A model generated the notes under the pieces. That model worked only from the letters and a program-made list of their open reading frames with translations. It was not told where the DNA came from and searched no databases. Shown one piece after another: positions 42,451-48,500 of a stretch of 64,000 nt of DNA (position 1 is its first letter; each line of letters starts with the position of its first letter). The stretch is taken from positions 24,379,127 through 24,443,126 of the forward strand of contig NC_088297.1 of the NCBI RefSeq assembly GCF_032854445.1. The letters are read 5' to 3'. The DNA comes from Liolophura sinensis (lineage: Eukaryota > Mollusca > Polyplacophora > Chitonida > Chitonidae). The translations under genes and the position numbers were made by a program.

Positions 42451-42528
42451 TCAGGGGACAAAGTTGGCGTACGTATCAAAACTCTCAATGAACGTCCTAA
42501 CAACTTCATAGCAGAATCTATACTGCTC
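42451..42528 (-). CDS. RPTP last exon: D2 C-terminus and stop
   Basis: This exon reads EQYRFCYEVVRTFIESFDTY then ANFVP and a TGA stop. EQYxFCYE is the usual last helix of a PTP domain and follows RPGALPNV in phase 0. Acceptor TTTTTCAG. Intron sequence of 1.7 kb, including the 67-bp array and two SINE remnants, separates it from the previous exon. Confidence 0.93.
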   Translation of the reverse strand, partial: EQYRFCYEVVRTFIESFDTYANFVP

Positions 42529-45500
42529 CTGAAAAACAAAAATACAATAGGTGCTCACGAGGTACGTATGGGAATCTATCCCATGTTATGATCGCTGATA
42601 ATGGCCACAATATGCCTGCCGTAATACCGATGTAATCTGGTCGCGTCCAGCCATACACCTGACCGAAATCACATTGGTGAAAACTTCTTGAGCATAGCGT
42701 TAACGAACAAACGAACAATAATCCAATCAATAAGGTCGGGGGTTCGAATCCAGCTCTCGCTGATTCGTCGGCAGCCTTAATTTTATTTTTTTTATTTGAC
42801 CGGTGTTTTACTTCGCACTTAAGAATATTTCACTTATATGACGGCGGCTCGGCAACATAAAGTTAAGTGGTTTCTGGTGTTCCTGGCGAAGGACCTTGTG
42901 TTAATCCAAGCATTTCTCTTTTAGCCACCCCAAAAATGATAGCTTTTAGATATGGGAAAAATGTTTAAATGTGGAAATAAACAAAAAAATAAATAAACAG
43001 GACAGGACGAGAAAGGTTCTGTAAACACGGCTTTGCTTTGGAATTGGCGTCCGCTTTCCTGTGTGAAAATAAGTTACCTAAATTTTATATTCTAGAATCT
43101 AAATTACAAAAACAATTTACTGGTATATTGTTGTGTCACCGTATAGGTGAAATGGTGATGTGATACCTGATGAGGACAAGGAGAAAACCTTTTGTCTACA
43201 GGCGTCTGGTGCTTTACTTTAAAGTTTAAGGCCAATACTTTTATCATGCTCACACTAATTGTGTCTTGCAAAAAGCGGCTAGTTCTAGTGTTTGGGGATT
43301 TATTTATTTATTTACTTATTTCATTGGTTCTTTACGCCGTACTCAATAATATATAACTTATACGAAGGCGGGCTCGGGGAAAATCATCACCATAATAATA
43401 GTATCCAATATTCTGCTTGAAACATTGGCAAAAATTGATAAGAACGATGACAAAGCACTCTTTTTTGGAATGTATCCGGAGTAACTTACCACGTTAGGCA
43501 GAGCGCCGGGCCAGTGTTTCCGGTTGGTGTTCCCAGTATTCAGTACAATAACTTACCACGTTAGGTAGATGTCGAGGTTGGTGTTTCTGATTGCTGTTCC
43601 CAGTATTCAGTACAATAACTTATCACGTTAGGTAGATGTCGAGGTTGTTGTTTCCTGTTGGTGTTCCCAGTATTCAGTACAATAACTTACCACGTTCGGC
43701 AGAGCTCCGTGCCGGTGTTTCTGGCTGGTGTTCACAGTACAAAGTACAATAACTTACCACGTTAGGCTGAGCTCCTGGGCGGTGTTTCCGGTTGGTGTTC
43801 ACAGTATACAGTAAAATAACGTACCACGTTAGGTAGATGTCGAAGATGGTATTTCTGATTGTTGTTCCCAGTATACAGTACAATAACTTACCACGTTAAG
43901 CTGAGCTCCGGGCCGGTGTTTACGGTTGGTGTTCACAGTATTCGGTACAATAACTTACCACGTTAGGAAGGGCGCCGGGGCGGTGTTTCCGGTTGGTATT
44001 ACCAGTATACAGTACAAAAACTTACCACGTTAGGCAGAACTCCGGCCCGGGGTTTCCGGTTGGTGTTCCTAGTATACAGTACAATAACTTACCACGTTAG
44101 GCTGAGCTCCGGGTCGGTGTTTCTGGTTGGTGTTCACAGTATATGGTACAATAACTTGCCACGCTAGACTGAGCTCCGGCCCGGTGTTTCCCGTTGGTGT
44201 TCCCAGTATATGGTACGATAACTTACCACGTTAGGCAGAGCTCCGGGGCGGTGTTTCCGGTTGGTGTTTACAGTGTACAGTACACTGATCATATGTTCCG
44301 CTTTTAGTTTCTCCAACACAGTGAAACAGGTACACAGCAGCACGGTTTTGTCCACGCCATTCCTAGGAAGGAAAAAAACCATAACTGTCAGAAAAAAATG
44401 TGTGGCAAACTGAGCCCGGTCAGCCAAAGCAACGACAACAATATCATAATAGGAAACTTAGACTTCGAACTCTTTTACTGCTAAAGGTAAAAAAGTGCAA
44501 TAGTATCATGTGACCTGTCAAGTACTGCAGGGTCGCACTTTTTACAGCTGTAAAAAGATTCATAAAAAGCTGTTTAGAATAAACAAACGATGGAGACATT
44601 TCTAGCGTTGCCCGCGTGGGAACTTGAGACGTTTCTGAAGGAAAGAGGCGTCATTTGTATCTCTGGAACACGGCCTTGTCATCTTGTCATATATAACGAT
44701 ATATATAGTACAGTTACATGATATATCTCAACATGGATTTTGTACCTTATCTCAACATGGACTTTCTTCAAGACGATGCTTAAATCCTAACAACATGTAT
44801 CGTTCAGCCTATATGAGTGAAACGCCTGAAAGTTCCAGCACGAGGAATGTAGCTGTGGATGTACACGTGAGCAAAAGAGGCGGTAACTTAAAACCGTTAA
44901 GGCGAACACGCGATACCTTTAATGAAATAACAGCTTCGTCTGTGCACGTCTTACCGTTCAAATTCGGTAATAAAGTTTGTTTAATTCATAATGTGGACCT
45001 CTTTTAAACGCTCTGAAACATTATTTTTCTGAAACGCAGTAATTTCCGCTTTTTTTGTTAAATAGAGAAGTGCAGTGTATTGCTGATGGCCCAGAATTGC
45101 TGATTGCTGAAGTGCAGTGTCGTATATTTAAGAAACATGGAGTATGCCGTATGCAAAGTAGGCAGTGCTGACGTCACAAACAGGCACTGCCCTAGTGCAA
45201 AGAATAAGAGGTCATAGCCGTGCTGGCGGGCCTGTGGTTCTTACACGCAGTGGACGATGATGGGCCTGTTGTCATTCTGTCTCTGCCATTCCTGAACAGT
45301 CTTCTGCAGGTTGATCAACCGCTCTGCTGAGGCCGGTACCACCGAGCCGGGCTTCCATAGGTTCACACAGAACTGACGCACGATCTGATCAGTCTTTTGC
45401 TCCTGCCAAATATAGGAAACAAAAGGAAAACTTTAAAAAATAAAAGTTTTTAAAGTGAAAGACAGCTAAGATAGGTCAGACGGACTTTCAGTTATATTTT

Positions 45501-48500
45501 AAAATCCTTTTAGGAGAGTAAAATGCATTCACATGCCGTCTGTGGCAGGGTACTCTTAAATCCCATCGTTGTTTTATTTCGTACAAACTATGCGCCGGAA
45601 CACACATTCAAGGCTTGTTATCGCCTTTACAAGGAGGTATTTTTTTTACATACGGTAATTCAGATTACAAATTGGAACATCCGTAATTGCTGGCTTCATT
45701 TGCAAAGGTACCCTTCCACATGAAACCCTAACGAATCCAAGAAGCCATGGTTGAGTGGTTAATGTTCTCTCGTTTCAGTCTGTAGGACAAACGAGGTGAC
45801 AGGGCCTTTATAGATGAAGATTTCTATCAGTGGGGCTTAGGTGACCATTAGTGCTCGAAAGCGCATGCGCGGTCTTTGCGCATTGTAAGGTTTGTTGAAG
45901 GCCATGCACTTTTTTCATACCAATATGGTATACAAATCTTTAATTGACATGTAGAAAGGTTCGTCAGTAAGTTGCCAAAAGTCGGCGGTTTATTGTGGGC
46001 ACTCCGGTTTCCTCCAACCATAAACTGACTACCATTATCTAAGAGAAATCTTCTTGTGAATGGTGTCAAACAACTATGGCAATTATCAATAAAGAAATAA
46101 ATCAGAGATATAAAACCTATAAAAGGGAGATCGAAATACTTCCGGTTTACCGGCATGAATCGCTATTGCTACTACTCACTCCTTTCTCATAGGATAGGTT
46201 GAGCTGTCGAACAAGATTCCCTGCATCTGACGTCGTCCATTGATGCTGTACCTCAAACGGACCGAAATTTCGAGTTTCATCATCAGCCGGCCAATACTGA
46301 CCGTCCTGGAGAGACAGGTGAGCAATATCATGATAGCAATAAAAGTAAAGGAAGCGGAGACTAGGGTGATAAAGAAAACCAAGCGCTACATGTAGCTGAA
46401 CAGACCCACACTGAGCAAACTCACTGAGCAAAACCATGTGTTAACTCAATAGACCCATATAGTTACTGACAAAAACATGCGTTAGCAGAACAGACCCACA
46501 CAGAGACTGAACAAAACCTTGTGTAGCTGAACAGACCCATACAGTGACTGAACAAAAACATGTGTTAACTGAACAGACCCACACAATGACTGAACAAAAC
46601 CATGTGTAGCTGAACAGACCCATATAGTAACTAAACAAACACATGTGTTAACTGAAAAGACCCATTCAGTGACTGAACAAAAACATGTGTTAGCTGAAAA
46701 GACCCATTCAGTGACTTAACAAAAACATGTATTAGCTGAACAAACACACACAGTGACTGAACACAAATATGTGTTAGCTGAACAGACCCATATAGTAACT
46801 GAACAAAAATATGTGTTAGCTGAAAACACACACACGAAGACTGAACAAAAACATGTGTTAGCTGAACAGACCCAGACAGACGCTGAAAGTAACCCTTCCT
46901 CCGCTGAACAGAACGCAGTGATTGAACAGAAACGTGCTTTAATTAGCTAACTAAATTTATAAATAAAGCCGTGTGTCAGATGAACAGAGGAATACAATGA
47001 CTGAGCAGAATCGTATGCGAGCATCCTGTGGTGATTGTTCAAAACTCTCCTTTATAATCATGTTGCAGATTAAAACTAAACCTTAAATAGTTAGAATAGA
47101 TCGTTAGCTGAAAGCTCAATCGCTCCTCAGCTGGACAGAGTCGCTCATCAGCTGGACAGAACCACTAATCAGCTGGCCAGAACCGCTCATCAGCTGGACA
47201 GACAAAACCTCTCATCAGCTGGACAGACAGAACCTCTCATCAGCTGAACAGAACAACTAATCAGCTGGACAGAACCACTCATCAGCTGTGCAGAACCCCT
47301 CATCAGCTGGACAGACAGAACCACTCATCAGCCGCACAGAATCGCTCATGAGCTGAACAGAACCACTAATCAGCTGGACAGAACCACTCATCAGCTGGAC
47401 AGAACCACTCATCAGCTGGGCAGAACCTCTCATCAGCTGGACAGAACCTCTCATCAGCTGGACAGAACCGCTCATCAGCTGGGCAGAACCTATCATCAGC
47501 TGCACAGAAGCGCTCATCAGCTGGACAGGACCTCTCATCAGCTGGACAGAACATCTCATCAGCTGGACATAACCCTCTGGGCGGCTGGACATAATCCTCT
47601 GGGCGGCCCCACACAGCTTACCTCGTTTTGTCCTGTATTCAGCATTATGATCGTTGACGACCTCTGTTCGAGAACAAGCCTCCAAAAGTCAATGATAGTG
47701 TCCGGTAAAGGCATCTGAGTGGAGATGTAGGCGAACTTGTTCTCGTAACCCTGCCATTCAAAAGACATAATCCTCAAGAACTGGTTATGGCTGGAGGGTA
47801 CCATTAATTTCATTTCGCCTCATACTAAACTCATACTAAAATTCGCCAGTACCCTACTTAAATTTCACCAATCTCTACTTAGCTCTCTTAGATTTGCCAT
47901 CCTCTTTAAAGTCTCCCATTGTCCTCTTAAATTCCAAACTTTATACTTAAATTAACCACACTTAAGCTCCCGATATAATCCTATGACTAGCCGATAGCAT
48001 ACTTAAATTTGCCAATATCATACTTAAATTAGCCGGTTCCATACTTAAAATCACGGAAAACTTTACTTACATTCACCAATTTCGTTTTTTTTATTATTAT
48101 TTGTTTTTTCTCTGGGAGGGGGGGAGGGTAGAGAGTTTAGTCTCTTTTATACTGTAGGCATAGCTTTTGCAAACTTCTGTGGACGGCTCGGGAGGAGTCA
48201 AATCTAGTTCAATTTTCATTACATCTAATTGTAATTGTCGATTTAATATATGGCCAGACTTTAGTGACACTCGTATATTTCAATACCTAGCAGAATTCAG
48301 TACAATGTAACAATCGGATTGAACCGATCAAGACTATCTTGTGGTAATCCTCTACTGCAACAAATAAGGTACAATCTTCCTCACTTCTTGATAGCTGAAG
48401 GGGTTTTCACTGGCAAGGGGAGATTACTCAGGCTTACCCGTAGATAAACGGCGTTGATATAGTCTGTTCTCCCGGGGATGTACGTTGACAGGAATGTACG

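Follow-up and report, generated by a model that had tools for sequence, protein, structure and literature searches.

What decides the choice of splice site when the end of a coding exon, together with its 5' donor, is repeated a dozen times, and do the extra donors serve the gene? The locus that raises this question lies in a 64,000-nucleotide stretch of the genome of the chiton Liolophura sinensis (referred to as the window), on scaffold_11 of an assembly whose report names the species Liolophura japonica (PMC11068029); a later correction (PMC12441733) gives it as L. sinensis. The host is a receptor protein tyrosine phosphatase (RPTP) gene, with a PTP domain and a degenerate second P-loop. 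Read from the ORFs, a D1 domain containing HC...AGVGRTG lies upstream of D2, and the D2 exon joined to EQYRFCYE matches PF00102 with an E-value of 2e-8 (34.6 bits, cut-off 20.9). The acceptor of this exon (44362-44227) is CCTTCCTAG, and a by-eye reading places the HCV/NGVDK P-loop across an exon junction. The intron that follows (44226-42529) is the last of the coding sequence, because the next exon encodes EQYRFCYEVVRTFIESFDTYANFVP followed by a stop. The gene features concerned are, in window coordinates:

44227..44362, minus strand: RPTP D2 exon with degenerate P-loop (HC/VNGVDK), 136 nt, ending ...RPGALPNV (Pfam PF00102)
42529..44226, minus strand: last coding intron, 1698 bp and phase 0 when spliced from the proximal donor
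42451..42528, minus strand: last coding exon, EQYRFCYEVVRTFIESFDTYANFVP plus stop

The original prediction held that the exon end and donor of this signalling gene had been amplified into a 12-copy array of 67-bp units, and this is borne out. TRF reports a period of 67, 12.0 copies, 0% indels and a score of 1004 for positions 43482-44284, and a second, independent repeat finder gives a start-to-start spacing of 67 for all of the steps listed. Each unit joins the last 58 nt of the D2 exon to 9 nt from the start of the last coding intron, and the array is thus mostly exon-derived. The donor states had also been read correctly, with GTAAGT in nine of the 12 copies and GCAAGT, GTACGT and ATAAGT in one each. 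The outermost donor had been placed at 44227, which is the last base of the exon; the G of the donor is 44226. The elements of the array are as follows:

43482..44284, minus strand: 67-bp array, putatively of the mirage type discussed below, 12 copies (TRF and second repeat finder)
44221..44226, minus strand: proximal (original) donor GTAAGT, the sole donor yielding full-length D2
44164..44166, minus strand: in-frame TAG reached from any inner donor
44154..44159, minus strand: donor 2, GCAAGT, with a GC state common to all four paralogs described below
43484..44092, minus strand: donors 3-12 in 67-nt steps, with first bases running from 44092 to 43489 (8 GTAAGT, 1 GTACGT, 1 ATAAGT)

The window as a whole is rich in tandem repeats (62 TRF rows in 64 kb). 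A separate array of 21-22-bp units occupies 47123-47607 in the same gene, about 14 bp past position 47621, where a different D2 exon has its donor, and exon sequence is not evident in its unit.

The consequences of using an inner donor can be predicted from translation. Reading through the proximal donor adds VSYRTIYWEHQRETPGRSSV and then encounters the TAG at 44164-44166, as had been claimed. Because this stop precedes donor 2, all 11 inner donors encode one identical truncated protein, whatever the phase of the inner donor; the earlier argument that 67 cannot be divided by three is irrelevant. It is nevertheless right that the outermost donor alone joins EQYRFCYE in frame, and no other donor gives a full D2. 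The stop is separated from the exon junction by 4 nt when donor 2 is used and by 71-674 nt with donors 3-12. Under the customary 50-nt criterion for nonsense-mediated decay (NMD), mRNAs from donors 3-12 are NMD-prone, as the stop lies at least 71 nt upstream of the last junction, and donor 2 alone of the inner donors would evade decay. In the mRNA predicted for donor 2, 20 residues substitute for the final 25 residues of D2. The predicted outcomes therefore agree with the earlier expectation of a truncated C-terminus or a decay-prone mRNA. These distances would suit a regulatory ladder in which the inner donors are spliced with some frequency, donors 3-12 feed NMD and copy number sets output, a reading that we regard as unlikely on the evidence below. 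Recursive splicing and the inclusion of inner exons within the array were considered and ruled out, as the 803-nt array contains no AG/GT and no good acceptor: the highest pyrimidine share before an inner AG is 0.64, as compared to 0.93 at the true acceptor.

To place the array in its genomic setting, a protein search was made with the exon and the best candidates were scored. The exon is found at four places on the contig that carries the window (C3), all in one orientation and with 98-100% identity; the seven further rows comprise six stretches within the arrays and one distant match, which, among these best candidates, has 40% identity and lies on another contig (C15). The four paralogs are:

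P1, C3 24248k: 11 copies
P2, C3 24342k: 26 copies
P3, C3, the window gene: 12 copies
P4, C3 24501k: 18 copies

The array sits on the same exon-intron boundary in all four. Its freedom from indels, which had been part of the original prediction, holds for the window copy and for P1; it fails for P2, where irregular units measure 66, 68 or 120 nt, and for P4, which has one unit of 54. In exon, array and upstream intron P1 resembles P3 (A type) and P2 resembles P4 (B type), so that the order of the RPTP genes over 24248k-24502k is A-B-A-B, which perhaps reflects tandem duplication of a gene pair. The downstream intron departs from this grouping, with 97.2% identity between P2 and P3 and 93.6% between P2 and P4. 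Two copies can be traced in all four paralogs, the last one and copy 2 with its GC donor, and the array must therefore be older than the split between the A and B types. The copies differ in how well they have been kept. The 58 exonic nt of the exon-proximal copy are 96.6-100% identical across the paralogs, and this copy carries two states that are seen in none of the 59 inner 67-nt units; when A and B types are compared, identity is 82-84% for copy 2, 95.5% for the last copy and 90-97% for the flanking intron. The inner copies thus diverge unequally, a pattern that exchange between units would also produce.

The same data bear on the possibility that the array is an assembly artefact, either a single copy that was inflated or two haplotypes placed in tandem. 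HiFi coverage of 14x and a heterozygosity of 1.2%, as given in the assembly report (PMC11068029), leave some room for such an error, and the alternation of A- and B-type paralogs along the scaffold points the same way. However, the mean HiFi read of 8,347 bp in the same report is about ten times the length of the array, the inner units differ from one another by 12 nt on average (paralogs pooled), and a separate array is present at each of four loci. There is also no N between 24343000 and the end of the window, which indicates a true tandem arrangement of at least P2 and P3. We consider an artefact extremely unlikely.

If the inner donors were maintained for use, they should stand out from the rest of the unit. 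We compared the 63 inner copies of the four paralogs; entropy ranks were calculated for the 59 that are 67 nt long, the four of other length being omitted. GTAAGT is kept in 45 of the 63, which favours the regulatory ladder, and GT is kept in 51 and lost in 12, which speaks against it. Ranked by entropy among the 67 positions of a window along the unit, the GT dinucleotide comes 40th and the 9-nt donor window 21st (42nd and 26th, respectively, when only the 49 distinct units are used). Likewise, 38 of 67 windows of equal size have a better-kept intact share than GT. The donor hexamer falls among the best-kept fifth of windows: it is intact in 0.73 of the 59 units against a window mean of 0.49, with 12 of 67 windows higher. 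Parsimony gives 3.5 changes per GT column as compared to 2.1 elsewhere, a difference that is not significant (P 0.18; four paralogs pooled). When the paralogs are taken separately, the 9-nt donor window holds the top rank among 67 in both P1 and P3, rank 22 in P2 and rank 47 in P4. The top ranks count for the regulatory ladder, yet P1 and P3, being near-identical, amount to one observation. Across the pooled paralogs there is no clear donor-specific constraint on the ladder; weak constraint on the donors may exist, chiefly in the A type. Changes at third codon positions (51 of 124; P ~0.08 by column shuffling) provide a weak hint of coding constraint. A related reading is that the extra donors are left unspliced and recruit U1 snRNP, promoting exon definition or suppressing early polyadenylation. 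Many U1-complementary sites do persist in the arrays, but the donor columns offer this reading no more than they offer the ladder, and we judge it very unlikely.

The array has close counterparts in amphioxus, where tandem repeats across exon-intron boundaries, termed mirages, are described in Adh3, troponin C, the globins BflGb6 and BflGb9, and PGBD5 (PMC3087553, PMC3902484). In the excerpts of these reports available to us, mirages are unstable in length and many of their units bear splice signals, splicing is apparently regular, and the boundary copies of BflGb6 escape homogenisation. The chiton arrays are alike in each structural respect: their units straddle the boundary (58 + 9 nt), many units retain donors, copy number varies (here compared across paralogs), and the boundary copy, with its two private states, stands outside homogenisation as in BflGb6. 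The report that mirages seem to leave splicing undisturbed (same excerpts) is a further point against the regulatory ladder. The chiton arrays differ from those of amphioxus in their molluscan host, in their 11-26 copies and in their presence in four tandem RPTP paralogs. Judged by its structure, the chiton array would belong to the mirage kind and so would not be a singular event.

Other known systems are less similar. The AGGT model, in which introns are gained by tandem genomic duplication, shares the tandem copying of splice signals (PMC4974935, PMC3443670, in the parts available); in the chiton, however, there is no sign of a new intron, the donor is what has been multiplied, and AG/GT is missing from the array. 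Human paralogs from segmental duplications likewise contain minisatellites, some at exon-intron boundaries, in recently formed copies, but the internal repeats described in the accessible text of that report (PMC2812944) alter exons or create transcript introns, whereas the mature chiton mRNA is predicted to be unchanged. Minisatellites of the earthworm metallothionein and abalone TSSK1 genes are intronic and, in the excerpts available, are not described as spanning a donor.

We think it probable that the array is a mirage-type minisatellite that arose by tandem duplication across the exon-intron boundary, with the proximal donor in use and the further copies drifting in the intron. Under this explanation, a duplication in the RPTP gene of an ancestral chiton would by chance have begun 58 nt inside the exon and ended 9 nt into the intron, and the array would then have expanded and contracted in copy number, its birth and later changes presumably proceeding via slippage or unequal exchange. 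Such a duplication leaves the upstream exon end and its donor intact, so the proximal donor is still usable, and the extra copies would lie in the intron, free to drift. If the exon is defined together with its upstream acceptor, the donor closest to that acceptor should be preferred. The proximal donor is most likely the one used, the remainder being harmless intron, and the additional splice signals seem closer to neutral passengers than to a means of control. In all four paralogs, moreover, the nearest competitor of the proximal donor has the GC state, which again argues against a regulatory ladder.

Splice-site strength tells a less simple story. P2 and P4 have TTG/GTAAGA as their proximal donor, with a modelled U1 duplex of -8.0 kcal/mol, and inner donors are stronger (-9.1 in the same model) in 15 of 25 cases in P2 and nine of 17 in P4. 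That many inner donors equal or exceed the proximal one in U1 pairing would suit the regulatory ladder, and the stronger inner donors of P2 and P4, the well-kept donor hexamer, the top rank of the donor window in P1 and P3, the conserved last copy and the share of third-codon changes all count against the explanation by passive duplication that we prefer. If full-length protein is made from P2 and P4, position, not strength, must decide, as their proximal donor is weaker than many inner ones. The locus offers a natural experiment in which the spliceosome selects a single donor from as many as 26 that are nearly identical; the protein-preserving donor of two paralogs is, by the U1 model, weaker than many of its neighbours, and the rule would have to be positional if that donor is used.

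Whether ladders of donors are favoured more widely was examined in the whole genome (609,464,459 bases, 632 contigs). Three GGTAAGT motifs at 60-90 nt steps yield 2801 matches as compared to 2838 for the reversed control, and AGGTAAGT at 30-60 nt steps yields 672 as compared to 509, matches within an array not being independent in either count. Donors are therefore at most mildly enriched in arrays, and the genome is simply minisatellite-rich. The first comparison weighs against recruitment of U1 by unspliced donors, as GGTAAGT ladders are no commoner than their control, and the mild excess in the second, subject to the same non-independence, could favour it. The first also bears on the original proposal that the ladder is kept because copy number tunes output: with no enrichment of the motif in tandem arrays, and with GT columns changing and being lost as described above, this is a fair hypothesis that is unproven and so far without support.

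The genes beside such arrays were then identified where possible. Among the matches listed (C1 up to 14.9 Mb), the GGTAAGT places form 17 clusters by a by-eye count, and matched-strand ORFs of at least 30 aa at the array edges were scanned against Pfam for these clusters and for 13 control ORFs. The ORF reaching the first donor has a Pfam match over the cut-off in three of the 17 clusters (L023, L030 and L034), which provide these boundary arrays:

DUF4457 gene: unit 42, 20 nt exonic; Pfam match over cut-off
Prominin gene: unit 76, 52 exonic; Pfam match over cut-off
DNA-PKcs gene: unit 83, 71 exonic; Pfam match, and a PDB match (E ~1e-12) ending at the donor

We take DUF4457 to be the KATNIP domain. 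A further cluster, L025, belongs to a GH18 chitinase gene, with a weak edge-exon match (E=0.23) and an array that starts at the donor or, under another period, 13 nt before it. The other 13 of the 17 show nothing over the Pfam cut-off, and two of them (L020, L027) have no matched-strand edge ORF. Open frames also reach the first donor in L019, L021, L031, L032, L033 and L035; frames of this kind often arise by chance, and they were left uncounted. TRPM and MCT, considered as identities for L031 and L033, found no support in the searches, and a Herpes_UL73 match under the cut-off was taken as chance. For the reversed motif, none of 16 clusters exceeds the Pfam cut-off, five of the 16 having no matched-strand edge ORF of 30 aa. 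The difference between three of 17 and none of 16 is not significant (~0.12, one-sided), and the control is impure, as its cluster at C1:2940605-2940761 is, on the other strand, a 30-bp GCAGGTAAG ladder that is itself donor-bearing. One control cluster, L051, has a NifU domain just under the cut-off (26.1 vs 27 bits). In L051 (C1:6685350-6687050, minus strand, about 1465-1474), the array starts about 9 nt past the donor of the NifU-domain exon. Boundary arrays exist in several unrelated genes of Liolophura; the sample gives their existence, and neither a rate nor an enrichment. Tandem arrays may thus have a preference for the beginning of introns.

Within the open-licence literature, mirages had been reported from lancelets alone, and no earlier mirage-type array was found there for a mollusc, chitons and bivalves included; they are now seen in a chiton, where four RPTP paralogs and three unrelated genes carry them. 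This suggests that minisatellites come to span exon boundaries in any genome in which they abound. A more far-reaching proposal would make donor-spanning minisatellites a genome-wide chiton feature with an origin separate from that of lancelets, and the ladders a reservoir of decoy donors: the nearest decoy would be weakened (as with the GC donor of the four RPTP paralogs), the others would feed low-level NMD or C-terminal switching, and array length would modulate expression among paralogs and individuals. We think this proposal improbable. Two observations made during the searches concern other parts of the assembly. A mollusc-type haemocyanin gene is present, with eight consecutive matches to PF14830, and a single contig (C99) contains seven COX1 matches at a spacing of ~15.5 kb, presumably the mitochondrial genome in concatemeric form and perhaps an assembly artefact.
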